From: a virus
DNA: 40,365 bases
Reading direction: 5' to 3' (one strand)
Virus record (IMG/VR): IMGVR_UViG_3300032053_000185
Coordinates: 1-40,365 of that record
In this document: one piece after another, positions 1 to 32,713 of the stretch
Numbering within the stretch: position 1 is the stretch's first letter
How the letters are laid out: the number at the start of each line of letters is the position of its first letter
Program-made: the position numbers and the translations under genes
The notes under the pieces: model-generated
What the model saw: only the letters and a program-made list of their open reading frames with translations
Databases searched by the model: none
What the model was told of the DNA's origin: nothing

Positions 1-246
1 TTGGGATGTCGATCGACGGGAGCTGGATGTCGATCGAAATATCGAATCCTAGGTCTGGAATGTCGAAACTAGGAAGACTAGGCAAGTCGATCGACGGAAG
101 ACTCGGCAACGCAAACGACGGGATTGGGATGTCGATCGACGGGAGCTGGATGTCGATCGAAATATCGAATCCTAGGTCTGGAATGTCGAAACTAGGAAGA
201 CTAGGCAAGTCGATCGACGGAAGACTCGGCAACGCAAACGACGGGA
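1..246 (-). repeat. Exact 123-bp tandem direct repeat (two copies, in frame)
   Basis: Bases 1-123 and 124-246 are identical by eye. The unit is exactly 41 codons, so gain or loss of copies would keep the reading frame. A third, diverged copy begins at 247 and is recognisable only over its first bases. Whether more copies lie left of position 1 cannot be seen. Confidence 0.9.
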
Positions 247-295
247 TTGGAATCTCAATCGAAGGCAGCGTGATGTTGAATTCACAGAGGCTCAT
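1..295 (-). CDS. Pro/Ser/Ile-repeat protein of the baseplate region (partial, runs off left edge)
   Basis: This open frame starts with an ATG at 295 that overlaps the stop of the upstream gene as ATGA, and it continues without a stop to position 1, so its C-terminus lies outside the window. After a short head (MSLCEFNITLPS) the protein consists of 41-residue units built from short LPS-I/L-D-I/L-P steps, ending in a segment like LGFDISIDIQ. Two units are identical at the DNA level (1-123 and 124-246); the codons next to the start form a diverged third copy. Spaced prolines with alternating hydrophobic and Asp/Ser residues suggest an extended fibrous or beta-structured repeat. It is the last visible gene after the hub and spike genes, so a baseplate or tail-tip role is inferred. 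I recognise no family. The opposite-strand reading of this segment is judged a shadow, because this frame continues the tightly packed minus-strand operon. Confidence 0.7.
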   Translation of the reverse strand, partial: MSLCEFNITLPSIEIPIPSFALPSLPSIDLPSLPSFDIPDLGFDISIDIQLPSIDIPIPSFALPSLPSIDLPSLPSFDIPDLGFDISIDIQLPSIDIP

Positions 296-3487: not shown

Positions 3488-6400
3488 TTACTTACTCGGA
3501 AGTTGCGCCCCGGCTGCCACGGCCGCGCCTGTTGAGGGTCTCAGTTTATCGATCGCTTTGGATATCCCGCCGGTACCAGTCGCCGCCATGGGTACCGCCT
3601 TAATGGCCTTCACCGCGCCAATGAGTTCACCCATCTTGCTGTCGAAATTAGGCCCGTAGATGTTCATGAACCAATCAGGGTGTCTGGCTTGATCCAACAT
3701 CTGCTGATTGTACTTGGTGACGTCCGTCTCAGCCTTTAGCTGCTCGCCCTCCTTGGTACCACTCTTGTTAGCCTCCGTACGCGCCGCTATGACCGCATCC
3801 AGAGCCGCCTTCACTTGCCCCAACTGATTCAGTGACTTCGACAACTCACCAGTCATCGCAACAGACGACTCCAATGTCGTCGTCAAAATCTTAAACCACA
3901 TGTTTTTGAACAGATCGAAAACCTTGTTTGTGAAGCTCGTAAACGCTTCCAGCTGCACCTTGAAAAAGGTCTTCGAGGACTCCGTGGTCGCCTTGAAAGC
4001 TGCCACGAACGCGCTCGTGATGCCCTCCACAATTGCGTCGTAGAGAGTCTTCTGAACGAGAGCGACTACGCCGCCCACGACGTTCTTGATGACGTCCAGC
4101 GCCTTATCCATGCCGGCGCCTATCATGCTCGCCACGGAGTCGCCGCCTCCGCCGAAGATCTTGTCTACGATCTTCGTTACAGGCGCGAACATAGCGCCGA
4201 CGAAGGCCGTCACCTTGTCAAAGATCCCCTTCGCCATCTCCCAGAACGTACTGAAGATGGTAGTGATGGCCTTGAAGCCTCTGTCGAAGGCATCCGGAAT
4301 GGTCGAGTGGCCGAAGAGGTCGTCTACGATCTTCTCGATCCAATCGAAGAAGTCCTTGAAACCCTTTCGTACAGTGGCCCACGCCCCAACAATGACATCC
4401 GCCGCTGAGGTGACCGCCTTGCCGGCCTGGTCAAAAATATTGACGAAGAAGGCGGCTACCGGATCCCAAACAGGCTTGATGTACTTTTCCCATACGGCAA
4501 CGACAATCGCCGCCATCGCGTTCCACTGCGGCTCCCAGACTTCTTTCCAGAGCCACGTCAACACTGCCACAATCGCTCCAATAGCCACTGTAGCGATGCC
4601 TGCCAGTACCTTGAACGCGATGACGACAACGCGATAGATGACGTAGCCAATCGTCTCTAGAGCCGCGAAAACAATCCGGAGCCCGCTCCAGATAACCGTG
4701 GCAGCGAATTTGGCGACAGACCAGAGTACATTCCAGTAGGGGATCAACACCCCGAAGATGACTTCACCAACTGCGCTGAGGACATTCCAAACGGTCTTCA
4801 GTACATCGATGACAGGGTCAAAGGCGCTTGCCGCGCCGCTTAGTGCGTCTCCACCGAAAACCGAATCCCAGACCGCCAACGCTGCTCTTTCGAAGCCTGT
4901 AACGACACCGATCACCAAGTCAATGATGAACTTGATGCCGTCGTACATGCCTCGGTAAGCGCTCTCAATCGTATCGAACACCGCCGTGATGGGTCCTGCC
5001 AACGAGGGGAAGGTCTTGACCAGCCAATCGCGGACGCCCTGCATGATGCCGATGATCACGTCACGGACAAAGTCGAGTGCTCCCTTGATGAGGTCCCCGA
5101 GCCCTTCGAGAATGCTCGGAAGAGCGTGGTAGAACTTCATCAGCAGAGTGCCCGCCAAAGCGAGCAAGCCGACAAGGAAGTCCAAAACTACAGGAACGAT
5201 GTGCTTGAGAGCCCCTCCAACCATGGGGCCTAGTCCGCTGAGCGCCGCCCCAACGCGACTGGGCAAGTCCTTCACAATATCGACAGCCCTGTCGAACACC
5301 TTCGCAATCACGGGCAGCAATTTAGTCCGCAAGATTTCAATCAAAGCGGAGAAACCGGCGCCAGCTTTAGCTACAGCAACCCCCAACCCAGTCTTCAGGA
5401 TCTCTCCGAATTTATCCCAATCGATCAGGTTTTTGGAACCCACCAAAACTTGATCGAGAAGATCGACGACCGCTTCAATGAGCGTGTTCCGCTGAGCAAT
5501 CAGCTGGTCGCCCACCTTTCCGATGATTTCTCCCCACTTCACTTTCTTCGCAGCATCGCCAAGCGACGTCCAAAGCTCCTTCAGCTGCTCGCCGATCGCC
5601 TTCCAATCTATGTTCTTGATAGAATCGCCAATCGACTTCCAAAGGCCGCGCCAATCGATCTCCGTGAATATCGTAGCGAACTCTTCAGCCAGCTCCTTTG
5701 CATAGCCAGGCAGCTTCTTAACAAATGCTTTTGCCTGCTCCCCAAAACCCTTCAGCTTCTCCTTGATAGTCTGAACAAACTCTTTCCGGCTTTCGGCAGC
5801 AATAGCCTTCTCAGCGTCATGCTGCTTAGCCTCTGCCGACTTGAGCTTTTCGAGGGACTCCGCATATTTCGCGCTGGTCTTTGGTAGCTTCGCCAGCTCC
5901 GCTCGAAGCCCCACTACCGCCTTCGAAGAGTCCGAGAAGGAAGCAGACAGCTTCACGTCCTTCTGAACACGAGCCAGATTGGCTTGAGCACCGGTCAATT
6001 TAGCCGATACAAGTGAGTACTCTTCAGTGCCTTCCGTAAGACCCTTGAGCTGTTTCTCTAGGCCGGCAACGGACTTCTGAGCAGCCTGAGTGTCTTTACC
6101 CGAGAGACCCTTGATGTGCGCTTCGGTCTGCTTGAACCCTAGGTGCAAGAGGGTGAAAGCAGCGAGAATCAGCGTGACAGGATTCAGAAGAGCAAGAAGT
6201 GCAGGGACAAGCGGACCAAACGCTTGAACTGCAGTGGCAACCTCCGGACCCAGTTTGCTGAAGACCATCGACATCGGACGAAGAGCCTCAGGAAGGAACG
6301 CTTTAGCGCCTAAGAAGGAGATCTCCGACATCTTGTCGACCATCTTCCCAAGCGGACCACCCTCCTTCGAAATCTTCTCCGCCGAATCGTTGAACTTCGC

Positions 6401-8323
6401 GAACTGCTTGCTCGCATCCGTAACGAATTTCTGAGCGTTGCCTCGACCTAGATTCCGAAAGCGCGCTTCCGCAGCTCCAACAATCAGGTCCATCGACTCC
6501 TTCAGAGTCATCGAGGACCGCCAAGTCTCCTTACCCGCCTCTCCAAAGCTACGACTCATCGCCTTCGAGGCTTTGATCGTCGCCACTTTGGCCTCATCCG
6601 CCTTATCCAAAGCAGACAGCAACACTTCAGAGGCTTGATCTCCGAAGACTTGCGTCATACGCCCACCAAACATCTTCATGATCTGCGCAGTACTCTTGCC
6701 TCCCTTTTTAAGCTTGGCAAACAGATCTGACATGTTGTCAATGAAAGGACCAACGCCGCCCTCGGCCGACTTAAAGGCCTTCGTTACGTCCCCTGTAACA
6801 ACCGAGGTGTTGGTCAAAAATCCGTGCAGCTCACTCTCCGTGCCCGTAAACATGTTCCGCACGGATTCCAACGACTCAACCAGCTTACCTTCGATCGTTA
6901 GAGCCGCCTCCTGCGCGCCCTTCGCGTTACCCGTTAGAGCATAAAGCGATCGAGATGCCTGATTGATACTCATCACGGCATCTTTGCCGCCAATTGTTTT
7001 GACTCCTTGAGCAAGCAAGTTAGTGCGTCGTTGGGCGAGAGACATGATCTCGTCCATGTGCTTGATCGGCCCTTGTACATCGCCAACAGCCTCGCCTGTA
7101 GCCATGAAAGACCGGCTGAGGTTTCCCAAGTCCTTGTCAGTCAGCTTTAGCCCCTTCTGCATCCGATCGAAGTTTTGGGCTGTTTCATAGATCGGTATGC
7201 CTAGGCCGTCCTCCAATTTCACTCCGGTAGCCGCACTATCCACACCGATAGCCTTCAACACAGGACCGAACTTGATCATCGCGGACGTCGCATGACCTGC
7301 GGTTTGAGCAGAGACTTTCATCCCCATCACCAAACCAGCGGCCTCTTGATTGGCCTTGTTCAACTCCTTACCCATGAGTCCGGTATTCGCGACTATCTTG
7401 CGCGTATCCACGGAGTTCTGCTGAGCTGCAGCCTCGAAGCCTGTAGTGAGTTCACCACCCGCACTTCCTATGTTCCCGAGCGCGCCGGCTACCCCAGCCA
7501 AGCGCTTCATAGGCATCTTATCGAGGAAGCTTTTGAACTTGTCCCCTGAGGTGCCGACAGACTTTCCCATCTTCGACGCGCTTTCGTCGATCTTCTGAAA
7601 GCTGCGCGATACCTGATTCCCACCCGCCTCGATTCCATCCGCACTGCGCTTGAACTTCTCGCCCCCTTTTCGGGCTGCAGCAGGAAGTTTTTGACCAAGG
7701 GTGCCACTAAGGGTCTTCACCGCTTGGTCCATGCCTTGAGCTTTTGCCGCCGCGTCTTTCGACGCAAAGTGCTGCAATGGCTGGGCAGCCTTCTCCGCCC
7801 CTTGCCCAACCTGCTCAAAACCCTTCTTCATTCCGAAGAGGCGCTGCGCAAAATTGCCAGCCATCCCCATCGAAGTCTTGATCTGCTCGCCGACCGCCTT
7901 GAACCGCTCTACCGGAATCTGTTCCGCGAACTTCTGAATGCGATCCCCAACAAGCTGCTGATAGACCCCCTTCAAGGAGTTCTTCACGTTGTCGAAGGAC
8001 ATGCCGATGCCTTCGCCAGCCGCGTTGTACGACCGCTCAGCGTCCTCCATCATCTTGGAGCCCTTGAGCACCCCTTCGAAGACGGACCCCTCCAGAGCGT
8101 TACCAACGTGCTCTAGACCCTCTGCAGCACCCTCAAAAACCTTGCCGCCAAAGGAATTGGCTAGGTTCACCATTGGCTGCGTAGCTTTTTCCGCCGAGGT
8201 TCCGAACGTACGAATGCCCTCCGCCAACCCATCCACGCGGGTCAACACGTCTTTTAAGACGCCACTGAGGCCAGAATCCTTCGCACCGAAGGAAAATCCG
8301 AGCCCCATGAAGTTCATCGCCAA
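3488..8323 (-). CDS. Tail tape measure protein
   Basis: This is the longest gene in the window (1611 residues), placed directly after the tail chaperone genes, as expected for a tape measure. The N-terminal ~650 residues are helical, Gly/Ala/Lys-rich segments with phage tape-measure features such as the KMFGGRMTQVFGDQASEVLLSAL stretch (split here by description only). A hydrophobic block follows near residues 695-720 (PLVPALLALLNPVTLILAAF). Coiled-coil segments come next, then a Trp-marked repeat region (about 885-975) and a long hydrophobic half with many V/I/A/F runs. By the usual rule of about 0.15 nm per residue, the tail would be roughly 240 nm long. The TTG at 8323 has AAAGGAGG about 8 bases upstream; an in-frame ATG at 8317 is the alternative. 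No peptidase or lysozyme motif is obvious. The product fills the tail tube lumen and sets tail length. Confidence 0.92.
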   Translation of the reverse strand: MAMNFMGLGFSFGAKDSGLSGVLKDVLTRVDGLAEGIRTFGTSAEKATQPMVNLANSFGGKVFEGAAEGLEHVGNALEGSVFEGVLKGSKMMEDAERSYNAAGEGIGMSFDNVKNSLKGVYQQLVGDRIQKFAEQIPVERFKAVGEQIKTSMGMAGNFAQRLFGMKKGFEQVGQGAEKAAQPLQHFASKDAAAKAQGMDQAVKTLSGTLGQKLPAAARKGGEKFKRSADGIEAGGNQVSRSFQKIDESASKMGKSVGTSGDKFKSFLDKMPMKRLAGVAGALGNIGSAGGELTTGFEAAAQQNSVDTRKIVANTGLMGKELNKANQEAAGLVMGMKVSAQTAGHATSAMIKFGPVLKAIGVDSAATGVKLEDGLGIPIYETAQNFDRMQKGLKLTDKDLGNLSRSFMATGEAVGDVQGPIKHMDEIMSLAQRRTNLLAQGVKTIGGKDAVMSINQASRSLYALTGNAKGAQEAALTIEGKLVESLESVRNMFTGTESELHGFLTNTSVVTGDVTKAFKSAEGGVGPFIDNMSDLFAKLKKGGKSTAQIMKMFGGRMTQVFGDQASEVLLSALDKADEAKVATIKASKAMSRSFGEAGKETWRSSMTLKESMDLIVGAAEARFRNLGRGNAQKFVTDASKQFAKFNDSAEKISKEGGPLGKMVDKMSEISFLGAKAFLPEALRPMSMVFSKLGPEVATAVQAFGPLVPALLALLNPVTLILAAFTLLHLGFKQTEAHIKGLSGKDTQAAQKSVAGLEKQLKGLTEGTEEYSLVSAKLTGAQANLARVQKDVKLSASFSDSSKAVVGLRAELAKLPKTSAKYAESLEKLKSAEAKQHDAEKAIAAESRKEFVQTIKEKLKGFGEQAKAFVKKLPGYAKELAEEFATIFTEIDWRGLWKSIGDSIKNIDWKAIGEQLKELWTSLGDAAKKVKWGEIIGKVGDQLIAQRNTLIEAVVDLLDQVLVGSKNLIDWDKFGEILKTGLGVAVAKAGAGFSALIEILRTKLLPVIAKVFDRAVDIVKDLPSRVGAALSGLGPMVGGALKHIVPVVLDFLVGLLALAGTLLMKFYHALPSILEGLGDLIKGALDFVRDVIIGIMQGVRDWLVKTFPSLAGPITAVFDTIESAYRGMYDGIKFIIDLVIGVVTGFERAALAVWDSVFGGDALSGAASAFDPVIDVLKTVWNVLSAVGEVIFGVLIPYWNVLWSVAKFAATVIWSGLRIVFAALETIGYVIYRVVVIAFKVLAGIATVAIGAIVAVLTWLWKEVWEPQWNAMAAIVVAVWEKYIKPVWDPVAAFFVNIFDQAGKAVTSAADVIVGAWATVRKGFKDFFDWIEKIVDDLFGHSTIPDAFDRGFKAITTIFSTFWEMAKGIFDKVTAFVGAMFAPVTKIVDKIFGGGGDSVASMIGAGMDKALDVIKNVVGGVVALVQKTLYDAIVEGITSAFVAAFKATTESSKTFFKVQLEAFTSFTNKVFDLFKNMWFKILTTTLESSVAMTGELSKSLNQLGQVKAALDAVIAARTEANKSGTKEGEQLKAETDVTKYNQQMLDQARHPDWFMNIYGPNFDSKMGELIGAVKAIKAVPMAATGTGGISKAIDKLRPSTGAAVAAGAQLPSK

Positions 8324-8378: not shown

Positions 8379-9331
8379 TTATTTACGCCGCGACGCGGCC
8401 TCCATGCGGGCTTTTCGTTCTTGTTCGAGTTCGATTTTCTTCGTGATGAGGCGATGTCGGCGGGTCGAGGGCAGGCTCATGAATTCGGAGTAGGCGTATC
8501 CTTCCCAGGCTTCGAGAAAGAAGAGGTACTGCGCTTCGAGTTCTTCTGAACCCGAGAAGGGAAGAAAAAACCGGTCTGGCCTACATCAAGTTCGGTCTTG
8601 AATCCCTCTCCGCAAGCCGGGCACTGGAGATCCATCTCGGTCTCGATGCCGCCTTCTTCGACGTTGAAGCACTCTTCTCGAAGGAAGTTTCGGTCCTTCA
8701 TGTTGAGCGACTTGATCGTATCCATGTCTGTCGGTTGCCCATCCAAGAGGTCAACTCGGACGAGGATGCTGAGGGAGAGCTGATCGAGGTTCTGGAACTT
8801 CGAAAGACTCTCCTCCTCTTTACCTGTCATGACATGCCAACGAGCCGGCTTTCCCGAAGGCAATACGACATCAAACACTCGCTTGTTTCGGTTGACGGTC
8901 GTTTTGACCTCCAGCTCCGCCAAGTTAATAGAAAAGAGATTCTTCTTGTCGCACTCATTACACTTGGCTTCGAACGGGAAGTCGTCTCCGAGCGTCACAC
9001 GGCGAATCGCCAACATGAGGAAAACTCGATCGCCAATCATCAAGCTACGGACGCAGTTCGCCAACTCCGTCTTGTCGGTGATGGTCCCCAAGCGCTCCAA
9101 ACAATTGGTGATGAGCTGCGTCACCTTCTTACCCGAGGGGATGTTCTTCGCCGCCAGCATGTCCTCTTCGATACCGGTGATCTCCCTGACCTTCACCTCA
9201 GTGACAAGCTCACCTTCTGGACTGAGATAGCCACAGGGAAGCTCGAAGATACCCTGCGTCGCCTTCGGCACAGCCATCTGGTTCTGAACGAAAAAAGACT
9301 CTTGGCTCTGGTTGAACGATTCTTCAGACAT
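8379..9331 (-). CDS. Tail assembly chaperone, long -1 frameshift product
   Basis: A -1 shift at the slippery heptamer 8564-8570 joins the first 256 residues of the 284-residue chaperone to a 61-residue extension ending at the TAA at 8379-8381, giving 317 residues. The extension reads through GSEELEAQYLFFLEAWEGY and a LPSTRRHRL step into a charged helix (KKIELEQERKARMEAASRRK). This resembles the second half of phage tail chaperone pairs, such as the T part of lambda G/GT. It lies directly upstream of the tape measure gene, where such shifts are conserved in many tailed phages. Without a shift, the same frame offers only a 33-codon ORF from an ATG at 8480. The sequence supports the shift strongly; it is unproven experimentally. 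Confidence 0.75.
8477..9331 (-). CDS. Tail assembly chaperone (T4 gp26/gp51-like baseplate chaperone family), unshifted product
   Basis: This 284-residue protein opens with a disordered ~20 residues, then MAVPKATQGIFELPCGYLSP and VREITGIEEDMLA. Both are typical of the family often labelled T4 baseplate/tail assembly chaperone. Two Cys pairs, CNECDKK at about 144-150 and CPACGEG at about 237-243, look like a four-Cys zinc site. The C-terminal ~25 residues are Ser/Lys/Pro-rich. The gene lies directly upstream of the tape measure, the usual place of chaperones that bind the tape measure during tail assembly. It contains a canonical frameshift site near its end, so a longer product is also expected. 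Assignment is by motif and position. Confidence 0.82.
   Translation of the reverse strand: MSEESFNQSQESFFVQNQMAVPKATQGIFELPCGYLSPEGELVTEVKVREITGIEEDMLAAKNIPSGKKVTQLITNCLERLGTITDKTELANCVRSLMIGDRVFLMLAIRRVTLGDDFPFEAKCNECDKKNLFSINLAELEVKTTVNRNKRVFDVVLPSGKPARWHVMTGKEEESLSKFQNLDQLSLSILVRVDLLDGQPTDMDTIKSLNMKDRNFLREECFNVEEGGIETEMDLQCPACGEGFKTELDVGQTGFFFPSRVQKNSKRSTSSFSKPGKDTPTPNS
8564..8570 (-). promoter_or_regulatory. -1 ribosomal frameshift slippery site T_TTT_TTC
   Basis: On the minus strand, the chaperone codons GGT TTT TTC contain T_TTT_TTC, a canonical X_XXY_YYZ heptamer in the correct frame. Slipping by -1 opens a 61-codon extension with protein-like, charged-helix composition instead of the 28 remaining zero-frame codons. 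Confidence 0.75.
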
Positions 9332-9340
9332 AGGTTCCTC

Positions 9341-9928
9341 TCAAGCCTCGCCGACCGGTGTTCGACGCTCGATGTTGATCTCACTCTGTTCCTCATACAT
9401 GCGTATGAGCGACTTAATGGCGTCAGTGACGGTCATCCCTCGCTTATCCAGAAGTACTTTGAAGGTGTCGTAGCGGTCACGCTCAACCCACACGTTCAAC
9501 TTCGAGTCCGCCCCTTCGTCTTGGTACAGCTCCAGGTCATCGAAACGACTTTCGTCTTCGATGTACTTGGAGATCAAGTACCGAACCAAGGACCCCATCG
9601 AGTTGAACGCCTTGTATGTCTGGAGCCCCTCTTGAATGCGATCGAAGAGCCTTCGACTCACCCAAAAATTCACCAGCCGCTGGTCGTTCGCCTTTGAGTC
9701 CTTCTTGGAAGCCTCCGCTGCCATCTCGCAGCTCCTACAAAGAAGCACTCCATTCGACTCCGACATCTGGCCGCCCGCTTCTAGCGGAACGATCATTTTG
9801 ACGCGAAGTCTCTCTTCTTGGCCGCAATTCGCGCATCGGCTGCGATAGCGCTGCCAAATCTTCTTTTCCCAGTCACTCGTCACTGAAGAGACGGAAACAG
9901 GGCGTTCGATCTTTTCGGCCGTCATCAC
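9341..9928 (-). CDS. Probable DNA-binding protein: inactive HNH-like zinc domain plus two ribbon-helix-helix-like segments
   Basis: This 195-residue protein has three visible parts. Residues ~20-70 have the HNH layout: CANC at 32-35, VKMIVPLEAGG at 43-53, Asn59, and CRSC at 64-67. The catalytic His positions are replaced (KM where HH is usual, Glu68 where the last His is usual), so I expect zinc binding but no cleavage. Residues ~86-125 (LVNFWVSRRLFDRIQEGL, then SLVRYLISKYIED) and ~143-180 (LNVWVERDRYDTFKVLLDK, then TDAIKSLIRMYEEQ) each look like a strand-helix-helix unit of the ribbon-helix-helix kind. Together this suggests a sequence-specific DNA binder, perhaps a late-gene regulator, lying inside the tail operon. 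The start is a GTG at 9928 or the adjacent ATG at 9925; no strong Shine-Dalgarno decides. Function is inferred. Confidence 0.6.
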   Translation of the reverse strand: MMTAEKIERPVSVSSVTSDWEKKIWQRYRSRCANCGQEERLRVKMIVPLEAGGQMSESNGVLLCRSCEMAAEASKKDSKANDQRLVNFWVSRRLFDRIQEGLQTYKAFNSMGSLVRYLISKYIEDESRFDDLELYQDEGADSKLNVWVERDRYDTFKVLLDKRGMTVTDAIKSLIRMYEEQSEINIERRTPVGEA

Positions 9929-10008: not shown

Positions 10009-10644
10009 ATGTATTCCAAAAGAAAGAGGTGCACTAAGTGCGAACAGACAAAACCTGTCTCAGAATTTCAGCGGAACAGAGCCACCGCGGACGGCTTGCA
10101 GACACGCTGCACTACCTGCCAAAACACAACCAATCGGGCTCAACAACGAGCCAAACGGGAAGCGGTCTACCACTACTTACGCCGCCATCCCTGTATCGAC
10201 TGCGGAGAAGCAGATCCGATCGTTTTGGATTTTGACCATGTTCGAGGGGTAAAGAGCTTAAGTGTCGGTACAATGATCAGCCGACAGAAATCCCGAGCAG
10301 TTATCGCAGCGGAGATCGAAAAATGCGAAGTACGATGCTCTAACTGCCATCGACGCCGAACCGCTAAAAGCAGGGATTGGTACAGCGGCTTTGCCGATTT
10401 CAAATTCGGGCCTGCCCCCAAACCAGACACACCTATTGATCAACAAGCGATAGCAGTAGCCGAGCGGGTTCTAGCTGAGAACCCTAATTGGCGGACAAAC
10501 ATAAAAGGCTTGTTAGCCGAGCTACAAACACAAGTAGACGCCGAATTATGGCCGATAGCGTGGTCCAGTGTTCGGGATAGCGTCAAACGACGTGTGTTGG
10601 AGTTACTAAACCCCCGCACTAATCGCCAGGAGGCGGCGGAATAG
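10009..10644 (+). CDS. Free-standing HNH endonuclease (likely selfish/homing type)
   Basis: This is the only convincing plus-strand gene in the window (211 residues). The N-terminus has a zinc-ribbon pattern with CTKC at residues 8-11 and CTTC at 34-37. An HNH-like nuclease core follows: CIDC at 62-65, LDFDHVRG with Asp76/His77, and VRCSNCHRRR with Cys110/Cys113/His114. The basic, partly helical C-terminal half may bind DNA. Such solitary HNH genes, inserted between phage structural genes and reading against them, are commonly homing endonucleases. It separates the chaperone-side genes from the small gene after the tube paralogue. The upstream AGG is almost adjacent to the ATG, so the start is not firmly set by a ribosome site. 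Target and activity are unknown. Confidence 0.8.
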   Translation: MYSKRKRCTKCEQTKPVSEFQRNRATADGLQTRCTTCQNTTNRAQQRAKREAVYHYLRRHPCIDCGEADPIVLDFDHVRGVKSLSVGTMISRQKSRAVIAAEIEKCEVRCSNCHRRRTAKSRDWYSGFADFKFGPAPKPDTPIDQQAIAVAERVLAENPNWRTNIKGLLAELQTQVDAELWPIAWSSVRDSVKRRVLELLNPRTNRQEAAE

Positions 10645-10901: not shown

Positions 10902-11633
10902 TTACCCTAGGAGCGCAATTTCTTCCACCATCTCTACAGCCAACTCGCACTGCATCAGTGAAATGGCCGAGGACGAAGCGTCAAAGTCACCACCCACTTT
11001 GTAGCGAATAGGTAGGGCCCCGTGAAGCATCCACGCTTTAGCCGGAATACGCGCCGCGAACTCAAAAGGACCAATCCCAAAGCCAGCCAACGCGTTCCCA
11101 ATGCCTCCGATGAGAGCAGTGGTGAGACCTGACGCAAGAATTTGCCCGCCTGTAGCCCCTGCCAAAGCCGCTCCACCAGTTGCGAGCCCTCCCTGAATCA
11201 AGGTCGCCGCAATCGCGCCACCCGCGCTCGTAGGCGGCGCAATCATAGGTCGCGTGAAGAACTGCACAAGCATCAGCGTGCGACGCGGTGTAATCCCGCC
11301 AATCTTCAGACTCACAGGCCCGATCCCCAATTTCGAGTTGGATAGGTCACCCGTCATCGCCGCCACAATCCACCGCCAAAAGTCGGAATCGTACCAAGAG
11401 ACGCCGCGCTCTAGAGTGATGTTCCCAACATCGGCGTTCTTGATCACCTTCTTCTTGAAGAACCAGTTACCCTCGGTGATATCCATCGTCTCCAGCGTTA
11501 TTTCAGGCGCCGTGATAGACGAGAACCCAAACAAGGGTGTGAGAATCGGCAAGGCTAGAGGCTCAATCGGATACGCATCCAAAAGCCAAAATGGGTAGAC
11601 CTGCAGCAGGTCGCTGACGACAGATCTGGCCAT
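10902..11633 (-). CDS. Tail tube-family paralogue with large insertion
   Basis: This 243-residue protein shares the gp19-type tube layout with the 172-residue tube protein downstream in coordinates. It has ITAPEITLETMDITEGNWFF and NVGNITLERGV-type strands (here DVGNITLERGVSWYDSDFW), matched in the true tube by IPEATIEAVEYKEGQF and FGDVTMSRGVARKDAAFW. It ends with the matching pattern LPIRYKVGGDFDASSSAISLM. Between the halves is a Gly/Ala-rich, hydrophobic insertion at about residues 130-190. A tube-like protein just after the main tube gene and before the chaperone genes could be a tube initiator, tube terminator or baseplate-proximal ring subunit. The role is inferred from paralogy. A terminator-like hairpin separates it from the main tube gene, consistent with lower expression. 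Confidence 0.75.
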   Translation of the reverse strand: MARSVVSDLLQVYPFWLLDAYPIEPLALPILTPLFGFSSITAPEITLETMDITEGNWFFKKKVIKNADVGNITLERGVSWYDSDFWRWIVAAMTGDLSNSKLGIGPVSLKIGGITPRRTLMLVQFFTRPMIAPPTSAGGAIAATLIQGGLATGGAALAGATGGQILASGLTTALIGGIGNALAGFGIGPFEFAARIPAKAWMLHGALPIRYKVGGDFDASSSAISLMQCELAVEMVEEIALLG

Positions 11634-11700: not shown

Positions 11701-11718
11701 GACAGATTAGAATCTGTC
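11701..11718 (-). repeat. Inverted repeat overlapping the tail tube stop codon
   Basis: GACAGATTAGAATCTGTC is a perfect palindrome; as RNA it gives a 7-bp stem with a 4-base loop. It overlaps the TGA at 11717-11719 and lies about 18 bases before the 13-bp terminator stem. It may help stop transcription or protect the 3' end of the tube mRNA. Confidence 0.5.
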
Positions 11719-12235
11719 AGGGCTCGATCATCTCACAGTGCTCGTAAGCGACGTCCAACTCCATGATGGAGACTCCGGAGTCTGTCGCGTCCAAGTCCGA
11801 AGACAACTTATGCCGAGTCGGGAACGCCTGCCAAAGCTTGTAGATCTTGGCAGCCGCCTGGAGGTTGAGATTCTCCGCCGGAGGAGCCGAAGGCCCAGGC
11901 AACGTGTCAGCACGGTGGAAGTGCTTGATGAGCAACTCCGTCCGGTACTCGCCGGTGCCCTCGATGACGGTGCGAATCCACTCCCAGAACGCCGCATCCT
12001 TACGAGCTACGCCACGAGACATCGTGACATCGCCGAAGGTGACGTGTCCGGGATACTTCCGCGTGTACAGGAACTGCCCTTCCTTGTACTCGACCGCTTC
12101 GATGGTCGCTTCAGGAATGGTGCACGCAGAAAACCCGGCTTGCGCGTTGATCGTGTTCAGTGGGACGTAGTTCTCCACTGCGGACACGTGGAACCGCATA
12201 TTGTGGAGGTAATCGAACGCTTGCGCTCTTGCCAT
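11717..12235 (-). CDS. Tail tube protein (gp19-like)
   Basis: This 172-residue protein has the length and pattern of contractile-tail tube subunits. It has an N-terminal FDYLHNMRFHVSAVENY strand, then IPEATIEAVEYKEGQFLYTRKYPG, FGDVTMSRGVARKDAAFWEWI, a loop region around LPGPSAPPAENLN, and a final RHKLSSDLDATDSGVSIMELDVAYEHCE. The DLDAT...MELDVAYE ending is characteristic of gp19-type tube proteins. It lies directly after the sheath gene and a 198-residue structural gene, as sheath-tube order predicts. It is followed by two hairpins, consistent with an abundant, separately terminated product. It forms the inner tube through which DNA passes. Confidence 0.9.
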   Translation of the reverse strand: MARAQAFDYLHNMRFHVSAVENYVPLNTINAQAGFSACTIPEATIEAVEYKEGQFLYTRKYPGHVTFGDVTMSRGVARKDAAFWEWIRTVIEGTGEYRTELLIKHFHRADTLPGPSAPPAENLNLQAAAKIYKLWQAFPTRHKLSSDLDATDSGVSIMELDVAYEHCEMIEP

Positions 12236-24515: not shown

Positions 24516-25798
<1,283 letters not shown>

Positions 25799-25802
<4 letters not shown>

Positions 25803-29431: not shown

Positions 29432-32400
29432 TTATGGACGCCAGGGTCCATTCCAATCATCGCTTGTACCAGACCCGAGCAAAAAGGCAGGCAGCAAACT
29501 AGAGTTCCCGGCAGCTTCCAGATTCCCAGCCATTCCTGCCTGCCGCTGTTCTTCCATCCAGGCGTCGCCAGAGTACGGCATGCTTTTCAGGATAGGAAGC
29601 GGCTCCGACAGCTTTTGCTGGGACAAAGAGTGCAGAATGGCCGCCATAGCGTCGGATACGTCTTTCGATCCGTTCGAAGGGTGGTCAATTTTCCTCTTGT
29701 TACCGGACAAGTCCTCCTGCAAAAACGTCAGCTCATCAATCAACGGTTGGTAGTGGTACATCCGAACACGATCTTCGTACAACGCCATCTTCAACGTGTC
29801 GTAAGGCGCTGCTGTCGTGTCTACGGAAAGCAAACCCGACTGGTACCCACGCGAGGAAAACGTTTGAATCGAGTCAGCCGATTGAAACTGGTCCAGTGTC
29901 ACACTGGTGATCATGTAGCCGTGAGCGGTCAGGTCGTAGACCAGATGCCGAACTTCAGACAACAAGACTTCCCCGCCTATCGGAGGGACTACTCGAAGCG
30001 CCAAGTCGATGATGTAAATGGGAGCACGTTCGGCGAACTCACGGCCGTCATCCGTCCTACGACGAACATCTTTCCAGCCCGCCACATGGCCCATACAGAG
30101 CCCCAAGGCATCCTTCCGCAAACCAATGTCGATGTGAATGTGACGCGCGGCATGAGGGCTAATGATGGGGCGTAGTCGCTGGAACTCCACCCGACCCGGA
30201 GCCTTCTCCGTCTTCATCGCCACCATCTCATCCCAAAGAAAACGACCGCCCTTCGACATGTCGTAAACGAGGGTTGAAAAGGGGTGTTTGCGGGAAGGAT
30301 CTACAGCCTCTCTAATTTTCTCTCGACGCTGAATGAAGGGGTGAACGGCAACCGTTGCTACGCCCGCAATGTCACGAATGGCGCCTTCTAGGTCCACTTC
30401 AAAGTCGTGGCGAAAATCCTCCGGCACATCGATGACAGCAGAACCTTCAGGAATGTTGTCCCTGTAGTGCTCTCCCTCTTCATCCGTTAAGATCTTGGAC
30501 GCTGTTTCAGCGTTACCGCAAAGCACCCAAAAGCGCTTCGTCTTGAAGTAGTCCTCAGGCTTGACGTCCCAAAGAGCGTAGTCGCGAACGAACGTCGTCG
30601 GATCATTGACCGATTCATTGATTCGCTTGGCCGTGAAGTCGTCGTTGGTCTTCTTTGAGGAGACCACGAAGAGCATGCCCGGCAACTTACCCTGCCGTTC
30701 GAAACGGCTCTTCATACGACGCTTAATCGTGTTGTAGAGCGTCTCAGCTCGACTCTCCTCGCCTAGCACTGTCTTGCGCTTCGCTAGGAAGTTGGACTCG
30801 TCAATGATTCCAGCAATCGTGTTCAAGCCGAGCGCGCTAGTGTCGGTCGAAGCGCGAGGTGCCACCCAGACCGCCTTAGGGAATCGAAGCTCCTTCTTCG
30901 TAGGCTCAAACGGAAAGTGCTCCTGGAAGTAAGGACTGGCTTTGATTTTCGTAACGATGTTCTCGTAGACAACCTTCTGGGCCAACGCCTCGCTGACAGA
31001 GAAACAGACCAACGCGATGTTGGTGTCCTTCGCCAGACCGAAGCTGGCATGCGGATCCTTCATACAAGACAGCTCGTAGAGAATCCGACATAGCCCGATC
31101 GAAGCGAGGAAGGTGTTGTGGAGCACCATCCCGTTGCCAACAAAAGAGTGAGTCTCGTTCACTGACAGATCGTAAACGTCGGCCACTCCATAAGGTTCGA
31201 CGGAAGATACGTGCTCCCAAAGAAGATCGGATTGAGCCAACCAAGCGTGCTCGCCTTGATACAGCGTCTCCTCGCACAAGCGCTCGAACCGAGCACGACT
31301 GAAAAGTTGGCCCTCGGGACACCCAAATCGCGCCGTTAGACCAGAACCCTGGCTGCCTAGCTCGTGTCGAATCTCTTTAAGCTCGTCAAAACCGACAGGC
31401 ACTACATCCGTGTTCGTATTCGATTTGATCCCCGAGCACGCATCTCGTAGCGCCTCGCACGTCGCCTCTTTCCCTAGAACCGGCCCAACAACATCCAGGA
31501 AATGAAGCAGATTAGAGGCGCCGGTGACCGTTAACGACCAAGCCGCAAAGGAACGTTTTTCGCCGGAAGGCGTACGGTAGAATTTCGTCTTCGGGTACTT
31601 TCGAGCGTGGACGCCCAACCGAAGCAACATGAATCGAAGATCGTCAACCATACCCTCCGACGCTAGAGTGACTTCTGCTTTCGCCGGTGCACGTACGGAA
31701 AGAGATCCATCACAGGCCCAAAATCGATTGAGGAAGGCCGAGAGGTGTTCACGTCGTAACCCGTAAAATTCGGCCGGAACCCTTTTTTCCCGTGAGTGGT
31801 CATCCAAACCCCACCTACGAACGAAGGCCATAACCCCGCGCACATTAAGTGTCGTAGCCTTGCCAGCATTCTGACGAGCGGCAGGACGAGCATCGGGCGG
31901 TAGGCCGTTGCGAATCGACCCTACGGTACGAACAAGTCCCACGAACTCATCCAAAATACTGGGCGTCTCATTCGTAAACGTGATGCTGTGCGTGCAGCCG
32001 CCATCAGAGAGAAGATAGGCCGCCAGCTTTACTTCATCCTCCGACACATCACAGAACCGTTCCGGATCCGGAATAGATCTTGGTGTGGCTACAAGATCTC
32101 CTTCGCCAATCAAAGCGGCTTCAACCCAACCACGAGAAGTGAAAACCTTGTGGTCGGTGCTGAGTATGAGGTGCTGGCCTCCGGCAAGAATCAGCCGAAC
32201 GCAGGACTTTCTACCTGAAGGAAAAGCCTTTGCGGCTTTGCTTAGGATCTTACCTTTCGCGTCCATGGAAGGGACGCAGAACTCACCAGCTTCTGCAACT
32301 GTTCTCCGTCTGCCCGAAGACAGATCGAATACCTCAGTTGTACTATGCACACATTTACCCCAACCGATCGACCCCGTAAAAATCGCCTCAACGTAGTAGC

Positions 32401-32713
32401 CGCCTTCAAACAGTTCGACGAGATCTTCCTTCAGCTTCGGATAGACACCGTCGCAGGTAGCACCCAAGTAATAGGGGTCCTTGATGAAGGTCATGATGTC
32501 AACGGGAGGGGTGTTGTACTCCGCGTTTCCGAGGACATCGATGAGCCGCCGCTCTTGTGCCTGCGGCGCCTTCTGTTGCATCTCCTTGAGAACGATCTCA
32601 AGAGTCGCGCGTTCGGCCGGCGTAAGATGCTCCATCTCCTTGCGGAGCAAGTCCTCCACCTCTTCCGGAGTCCGCTCGCTTCGCGCGCGTCCATTTTTAA
32701 GAAGGATCGGCAT
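29432..32713 (-). CDS. Large terminase subunit (gp17-like) containing an intein
   Basis: This 1093-codon gene encodes the packaging motor ATPase-nuclease, with a 413-residue intein at 121-533; the spliced product would be 680 residues. Extein marks are an N-terminal IKDPYYLGATCDGVYPKL segment, the Walker A GSIGWGK-T formed by residues 114-120 plus Thr534, and Walker B IAGIIDESN at about 633-641. A VAPRASTDTSALGLNTIAG segment precedes Walker B, and an RNase H-like nuclease part has HIHIDIGLRKDALG near 860. It overlaps the small-subunit candidate as TGATG. The C-terminus is short and Gly/Ser-rich. The protein docks on the portal, hydrolyses ATP to pump DNA, and cuts concatemers. Activity depends on splicing because the P-loop is interrupted. 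Confidence 0.93.
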   Translation of the reverse strand: MPILLKNGRARSERTPEEVEDLLRKEMEHLTPAERATLEIVLKEMQQKAPQAQERRLIDVLGNAEYNTPPVDIMTFIKDPYYLGATCDGVYPKLKEDLVELFEGGYYVEAIFTGSIGWGKCVHSTTEVFDLSSGRRRTVAEAGEFCVPSMDAKGKILSKAAKAFPSGRKSCVRLILAGGQHLILSTDHKVFTSRGWVEAALIGEGDLVATPRSIPDPERFCDVSEDEVKLAAYLLSDGGCTHSITFTNETPSILDEFVGLVRTVGSIRNGLPPDARPAARQNAGKATTLNVRGVMAFVRRWGLDDHSREKRVPAEFYGLRREHLSAFLNRFWACDGSLSVRAPAKAEVTLASEGMVDDLRFMLLRLGVHARKYPKTKFYRTPSGEKRSFAAWSLTVTGASNLLHFLDVVGPVLGKEATCEALRDACSGIKSNTNTDVVPVGFDELKEIRHELGSQGSGLTARFGCPEGQLFSRARFERLCEETLYQGEHAWLAQSDLLWEHVSSVEPYGVADVYDLSVNETHSFVGNGMVLHNTFLASIGLCRILYELSCMKDPHASFGLAKDTNIALVCFSVSEALAQKVVYENIVTKIKASPYFQEHFPFEPTKKELRFPKAVWVAPRASTDTSALGLNTIAGIIDESNFLAKRKTVLGEESRAETLYNTIKRRMKSRFERQGKLPGMLFVVSSKKTNDDFTAKRINESVNDPTTFVRDYALWDVKPEDYFKTKRFWVLCGNAETASKILTDEEGEHYRDNIPEGSAVIDVPEDFRHDFEVDLEGAIRDIAGVATVAVHPFIQRREKIREAVDPSRKHPFSTLVYDMSKGGRFLWDEMVAMKTEKAPGRVEFQRLRPIISPHAARHIHIDIGLRKDALGLCMGHVAGWKDVRRRTDDGREFAERAPIYIIDLALRVVPPIGGEVLLSEVRHLVYDLTAHGYMITSVTLDQFQSADSIQTFSSRGYQSGLLSVDTTAAPYDTLKMALYEDRVRMYHYQPLIDELTFLQEDLSGNKRKIDHPSNGSKDVSDAMAAILHSLSQQKLSEPLPILKSMPYSGDAWMEEQRQAGMAGNLEAAGNSSLLPAFLLGSGTSDDWNGPWRP
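31115..32353 (-). mobile_element. LAGLIDADG-type intein in the terminase Walker A loop
   Basis: The intein is 413 residues, starting at Cys121 (CVHSTTEVFDL) and ending with His-Asn (GNGMVLHN), followed by Thr as the +1 residue. Splicing block B is GGQHLILSTDHKVFT with the T-x-x-H type pattern. Block F/G is VYDLSVNETHSFVGNGMVLHN (described in parts here). Between them are two LAGLIDADG-like helices, LAAYLLSDGG at about 230-239 and LSAFLNRFWACDG at about 324-336. This makes it a full intein with a homing endonuclease domain that appears intact by these motifs. Its removal restores GSIGWGKT. Splice borders are set by Cys1, HN and the restored P-loop. Confidence 0.93.

Follow-up and report, generated by a model that had tools for sequence, protein, structure and literature searches.

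The chaperone gene and its surroundings

The window, by which we mean the whole 40,365-nt stretch analysed (IMG/VR virus record IMGVR_UViG_3300032053_000185), carries on its minus strand an ORF of 284 codons (9331..8477, stop included) whose product is a member of the T4 gp26/gp51 family PF12322 (T4_baseplate). The 284-aa protein matched this profile with E=5e-13 (49.7 bits, cut-off 24.5; profile positions 15-112 of 219) and PHROG 150 with E=1.4e-13, and profile comparison revealed that T4 gp26 and gp51 both match PF12322 strongly. Two zinc-type CxxC knuckles are present, C124/C127 and C237/C240, and both pairs, together with an FFFP motif, are invariant as amino acids across 22 relatives. The AlphaFold model of the protein reached a pLDDT of 85, falling below 50 in the tail (residues 268-283). 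When this model was compared with the viral library BFVD using Foldseek, the best match was a 'baseplate hub assembly protein, T4-like' (E=7e-26), with the SP-15 hub subunit and gp26 of Aeromonas phage 25 among the further top matches; a fold search of the PDB with the same model gave no match. We refer to this zero-frame product as TAC-N, a T4 gp26-like tail assembly chaperone. Only one PF12322-type gene, that of the chaperone, was matched in the window record, which is a fragment.

The gene is placed between the tube genes and the tape measure gene. The next gene downstream (3488..8323, minus strand) encodes the 1611-aa tail tape measure protein (PHROG 1272, E=1.2e-25) and starts with a TTG at 8323, with AAGGAGG upstream. 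On the other side, two paralogues of the T4 gp19 tail tube family (PF06841) lie side by side on the minus strand: the tail tube gene itself (11717..12235, E=4e-20) and a second tube-like gene (10902..11633, E=1.8e-12). An HNH endonuclease gene (9341-9928, minus strand) intervenes directly upstream of the chaperone gene, and beside it an opposite-strand ORF (10009-10644, plus strand) also looks HNH-like; both could be homing insertions in the tail module. The window further contains T4-type head genes (Gp23 capsid, Peptidase_S77 protease and Portal_T4) and tail genes that include a sheath and the gp19-like tubes, and therefore the original prediction was correct in setting the gene in a contractile phage with T4-like head genes. 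Its assignment to a T4 gp26/gp51-type zinc chaperone is likewise borne out by the profile common to both T4 proteins and by the two knuckles.

Three other features of the window were recorded. A terminase-like gene (29432-32713, minus strand), assigned by position and sequence, is split by an intein in which both splicing and LAGLIDADG domains were recognised (PF14890, PF14528); an ORF that runs off the record (2-295, minus strand) is built of a repeated PSFALPSLPSIDLPSLPSFDIPDLGFDISIDIQLPSIDIPI unit; and a head-region ORF (24516-25802, minus strand) contains long aspartate runs of simple sequence.

A slippery heptamer and an overlapping -1 frame

The end of the chaperone ORF reads GGT TTT TTC TTC CCT, which places the heptamer T_TTT_TTC at 8570..8564 (minus strand) in the X_XXY_YYZ register that fits a tandem -1 slip. 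Beyond it, the zero frame continues for 28 codons and a stop (8477..8563), a tail modelled with low confidence whose length varies from 5 to 28 codons among relatives. This tail is overlapped by a -1 frame (8379..8564, minus strand), which would be entered by reading the last base of the heptamer twice, and which comprises 61 codons, LPFSGSEELEAQYLFFLEAWEGYAYSEFMSLPSTRRHRLITKKIELEQERKARMEAASRRK, and a TAA stop at 8381..8379. The -1 frame is closed eight codons upstream of the site. Joining it to the 284-codon gene would give a fusion of 317 aa, with a junction peptide containing ...TGFFLPFSGSEELEAQ..., and so the heptamer in the correct frame of the chaperone gene, the 61-residue extension and the 317-residue product of the original prediction were all recovered from the sequence, as was the end of the extension just before the tape measure gene (stop at 8379, next gene from 8323). 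The extension, a putative T domain, was modelled as three helices (pLDDT 80.5), and on its own it gave no significant match in a viral fold search.

Among the listed window genes, 2 of 19 FF pairs are encoded as T_TTT_TTY, which makes the heptamer at 8570 more than a chance occurrence. A second in-frame T_TTT_TTC, at 9296 (codon 12), was rejected as a slip site: the -1 frame is open there for only 26 codons, and the relative L034, with the N-terminus MSSKESLIIESQ, lacks the heptamer. The region is unchanged in two other IMG/VR contigs, which is evidence against a local assembly error.

Stimulatory RNA structures downstream of the slip site are frequent in G/GT-type frameshifts, but they are not obligatory. 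RNAalifold applied to the relatives' alignment gave no conserved pair downstream, single folds had a mean z of -0.57, and an Rfam search of the window gave no match. In the window alone a hairpin follows soon after the heptamer, with a z of -1.5, not better than many shuffles. We therefore claim the site and not a stimulator.

Conservation of the site and of the -1 frame in close relatives

A search with the sheath yielded three chaperone homologues with a -1 extension, while the sheath-found loci L027-L030, L032 and L035, with no recognisable chaperone in the fetched stretch, were left out. Alignment of four zero-frame proteins then led to 35 viral contigs and one metagenome-assembled bacterial contig. 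The set of relatives comprised 35 loci, the window copy (L037) included, of which 22 were distinct. Since the scan pattern consisted of FFFP at the amino-acid level only, codon choice at the site was not selected by the scan. The 3.5-kb contig L072, binned as Candidatus Sulfotelmatobacter, is either a prophage or a mis-binned virus; the relative that it carries is close, at 60% identity, and has the same site.

An in-frame T_TTT_TTC was present in all 35 loci. In 34 of them it lies at the first FF, where exactly six T are followed by a C and the codon phase is that of a tandem -1 slip, and in L051 the run GGG TTT TTT TTC puts the same heptamer one codon later. The -1 extension was open in every locus (54-80 aa) and shares the motif LP.....LE.E.FYLME......M.MP.SRR.RL. 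A long ORF begins 3-118 bases past the -1 stop in 20 of 21 loci. Loss of the heptamer or early stops in the -1 frame of relatives, which the original prediction had proposed to look for, occurred in none of the 35 loci.

Codon choice at the site departs from that of the same genes elsewhere. All 22 distinct loci use TTT for the first Phe of the heptamer, versus 28 of 169 (17%) upstream, and the codon before it, for Gly or Ser, ends in T in 21 of 22, versus about 18% elsewhere. The naive products of these choices come to about 1e-17 each, but they take no account of common ancestry and should not be quoted as probabilities; nevertheless, the direction of the bias is clear, because the zero-frame proteins of the relatives differ by 40-69% from that of the window and the G+C content of the genes spans 34-72%. 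Past the zero-frame stop, pairwise differences fell on the first, second and third positions of the -1 codons 75, 48 and 140 times, respectively, and the -1 frame remained without stops, whereas almost every sequence has stops in the zero frame. Over the extension, pN/pS ranged from 0.17 to 0.64 in eight pairs. These comparisons indicate that the site and the -1 frame are conserved by selection, which acts on codon choice as well as on the protein of the -1 frame.

Distant relatives and possible routes to the T domain

More distant members were sought by tblastn in named phages, and ten were analysed: XaC1, XacN1, Atu_ph07, Phosso, Vibrio 2.275.O, RAS14, PA5oct, 121Q, RaK2 and the huge phage LR756511. 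In each of them, the FF that follows the second zinc knuckle lies in a T_TTT_TTC or T_TTT_TTT, and the -1 extension comprises 70-81 aa, counted from the FF. Jumbo phages such as 121Q, RaK2, PA5oct, Atu_ph07, XaC1 and Vibrio 2.275.O resemble the window in three respects, namely a PF12322-type gene, a T_TTT_TTY at the FF beyond its second CxxC, and a homologous -1 extension, but differ from it in that their zero frame often stops one or two codons past the site. None of the annotations examined for these gp26-like genes bears a frameshift label. The extension profiles of the distant phages and of the window clade matched each other with an hhalign E of 6e-6, compared to 0.05-0.6 for scrambled columns.

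The distant extension profile also matched, with E=3e-10, a domain found in the +1/-2 frame in SP-15, LIS04, GXN1, Mel-JY01, immuto and L036, in which the codon before the FF never ends in T. At the end of the PF12322-type gene in L009, L010, L011, L014, L021 and L036, the homologous T domain lies in the +1/-2 frame, with FF or FL at the same place and no preceding NNT codon. Slicko01 is without the FF and has its +1 frame open, and in LR756508 (L012) neither the -1 nor the +1/-2 arrangement was found at that place. One reading of these data, to which we give an even chance, is that a single homologous chaperone family supplies its T domain in three ways: by slipping -1 at T_TTT_TTY in many jumbo phages as well as the window clade, by changing frame by +1 or -2 at the same FF in SP-15, LIS04, GXN1, Mel-JY01, immuto and L036, and by using separate genes in T4, so that the FF would stay while the decoding rule changes.

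Alternative explanations

The extension might be a separate small gene that has a start of its own or is translated by ribosomes re-initiating past the zero-frame stop, with no fusion being made. In several distant relatives it is indeed annotated as a hypothetical gene in its own right (121Q gene 595, Vibrio NVP2275O_435 and SP-15 SP15_046), and hence the claim that ordinary gene calling would miss this short ORF holds for some genomes but not for these. However, ATG, GTG and TTG are absent from the -1 frame ahead of the conserved T-domain motif in 21 of 22 close loci, and therefore independent initiation cannot make the whole T domain. Moreover, the conserved FFLP that opens the -1 reading sits in the heptamer itself, and a separate gene leaves the codon choice at the heptamer unexplained. 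We consider this explanation very unlikely.

Just as improbable, in our estimation, is a change of frame during RNA synthesis, in which the polymerase slips on the T6 run and produces a mixed mRNA. A run of T6-T8 does occur at the site, and transcriptional slippage is known at longer runs, but six is short for such a run; the exact T6 plus C in the tandem -1 slip phase (34 of 35 close loci) and the T_TTT_TTC or T_TTT_TTT kept by distant members speak against it as well. Least credible of all is that the heptamer is a chance by-product of an FFF motif in the protein, with the 284-aa baseplate hub protein alone being of importance, given that, despite the amino-acid invariance of FFFP and the chance heptamer at 9296, the synonymous choice at the site opposes genome usage, the -1 frame is kept as protein beyond the zero-frame stop, and no relative out of 35 combines TTC TTC at the site with a broken -1 frame.

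Comparison with known systems

The window gene differs from lambda gpG/gpGT in its slip site, which is G_GGA_AAG in lambda, and by the profiles searched the two chaperone families are unrelated. The viruses differ too, that of the window being a contractile phage with a T4-type capsid and portal. In the lambda system, as described by Atkins et al. (PMC5009743), the short form serves as a coat for the tape measure protein and the long form, which is the minor one, delivers tube subunits; both dissociate.

T4 gp26 and gp51 share both PF12322 and PHROG 150 with the window protein. T4 gp26 ends in ...LKEFFELL, just after an FF which is that of the window slip site, and gp51 has 22 extra C-terminal residues weakly resembling the T domain: the hhalign E was 0.013-0.022 against two distant-phage T-domain profiles, a weak match, and 0.35 against the window clade, with shuffled controls at 0.1-0.8. 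In T4, the short and long forms come from two separate genes, whereas the window record, a fragment, has one gene with a slip site. T4-like tail assembly chaperones were identified by Vladimirov, Gautam and Davidson (2022, Virology 566:9-15), as cited in PMC10885494, on the point that some T4-like phages encode the short and long forms in separate genes, and in PMC12846349, on the point that T4-like phages have poly-T -1 signals in their TAC-N genes. PMC12846349 itself describes a conserved -1 site (GTTTTT) at the end of TAC-N in the contractile Vandenendeviridae (Pseudomonas phage Adele) and the TAC locus of Andersonviridae. Like the window, these are contractile phages with a -1 site at the end of TAC-N, and their extension is annotated separately (PMC12846349); they belong to different phage families and are likened to the window by the layout of the locus. 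The original prediction that G/GT logic extends to a contractile phage thus holds here, but not as a novelty, being preceded by Adele and the Vandenendeviridae and, as far as the citing papers report Vladimirov et al., by T4-like chaperones.

Proposed mechanism and significance

The explanation that we favour, with a probability of about 0.9, is that -1 programmed ribosomal frameshifting makes a long isoform of the tail assembly chaperone (TAC-NC), the counterpart of lambda GT. The family, the site, the open and conserved -1 frame and the selection acting on both codon choice and the -1 protein all favour it; the conservation of FFFP also as protein and the lack of a conserved RNA structure downstream weigh against it. 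Most ribosomes would read the zero frame and produce the short form of 284 aa, TAC-N, while a minority would slip back one base on U_UUU_UUC and produce the predicted 317-aa TAC-NC, in which the 61-residue helical T domain would replace the disordered zero-frame tail. By analogy with lambda G/GT, TAC-N, in many copies, would form a coat on the tape measure protein, TAC-NC, in few copies, would recruit tail tube subunits through its T domain, and both forms would leave before the virion is completed; the tail tube protein encoded at 11717..12235 is the likely partner of the T domain, as gpV is in lambda. We infer the slippage itself, its frequency, the binding partners and the departure from the virion, with the binding roles resting on lambda.

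The -1 frameshift is a well-known device in phages, and the window appears, from sequence comparison, as a well-supported and long-conserved case of it in the T4 gp26/gp51-type family. The finding corrects two annotations in the virus group of the window and in well-studied jumbo phages such as 121Q, RaK2 and PA5oct: that of a gene which routinely goes by the name 'baseplate hub', and that of a small ORF which is either overlooked or called hypothetical. It also provides a large natural set in which one heptamer has been kept across genes of 34-72% G+C, useful for asking how much slippage must occur for tails to assemble and whether this calls for a stimulator.
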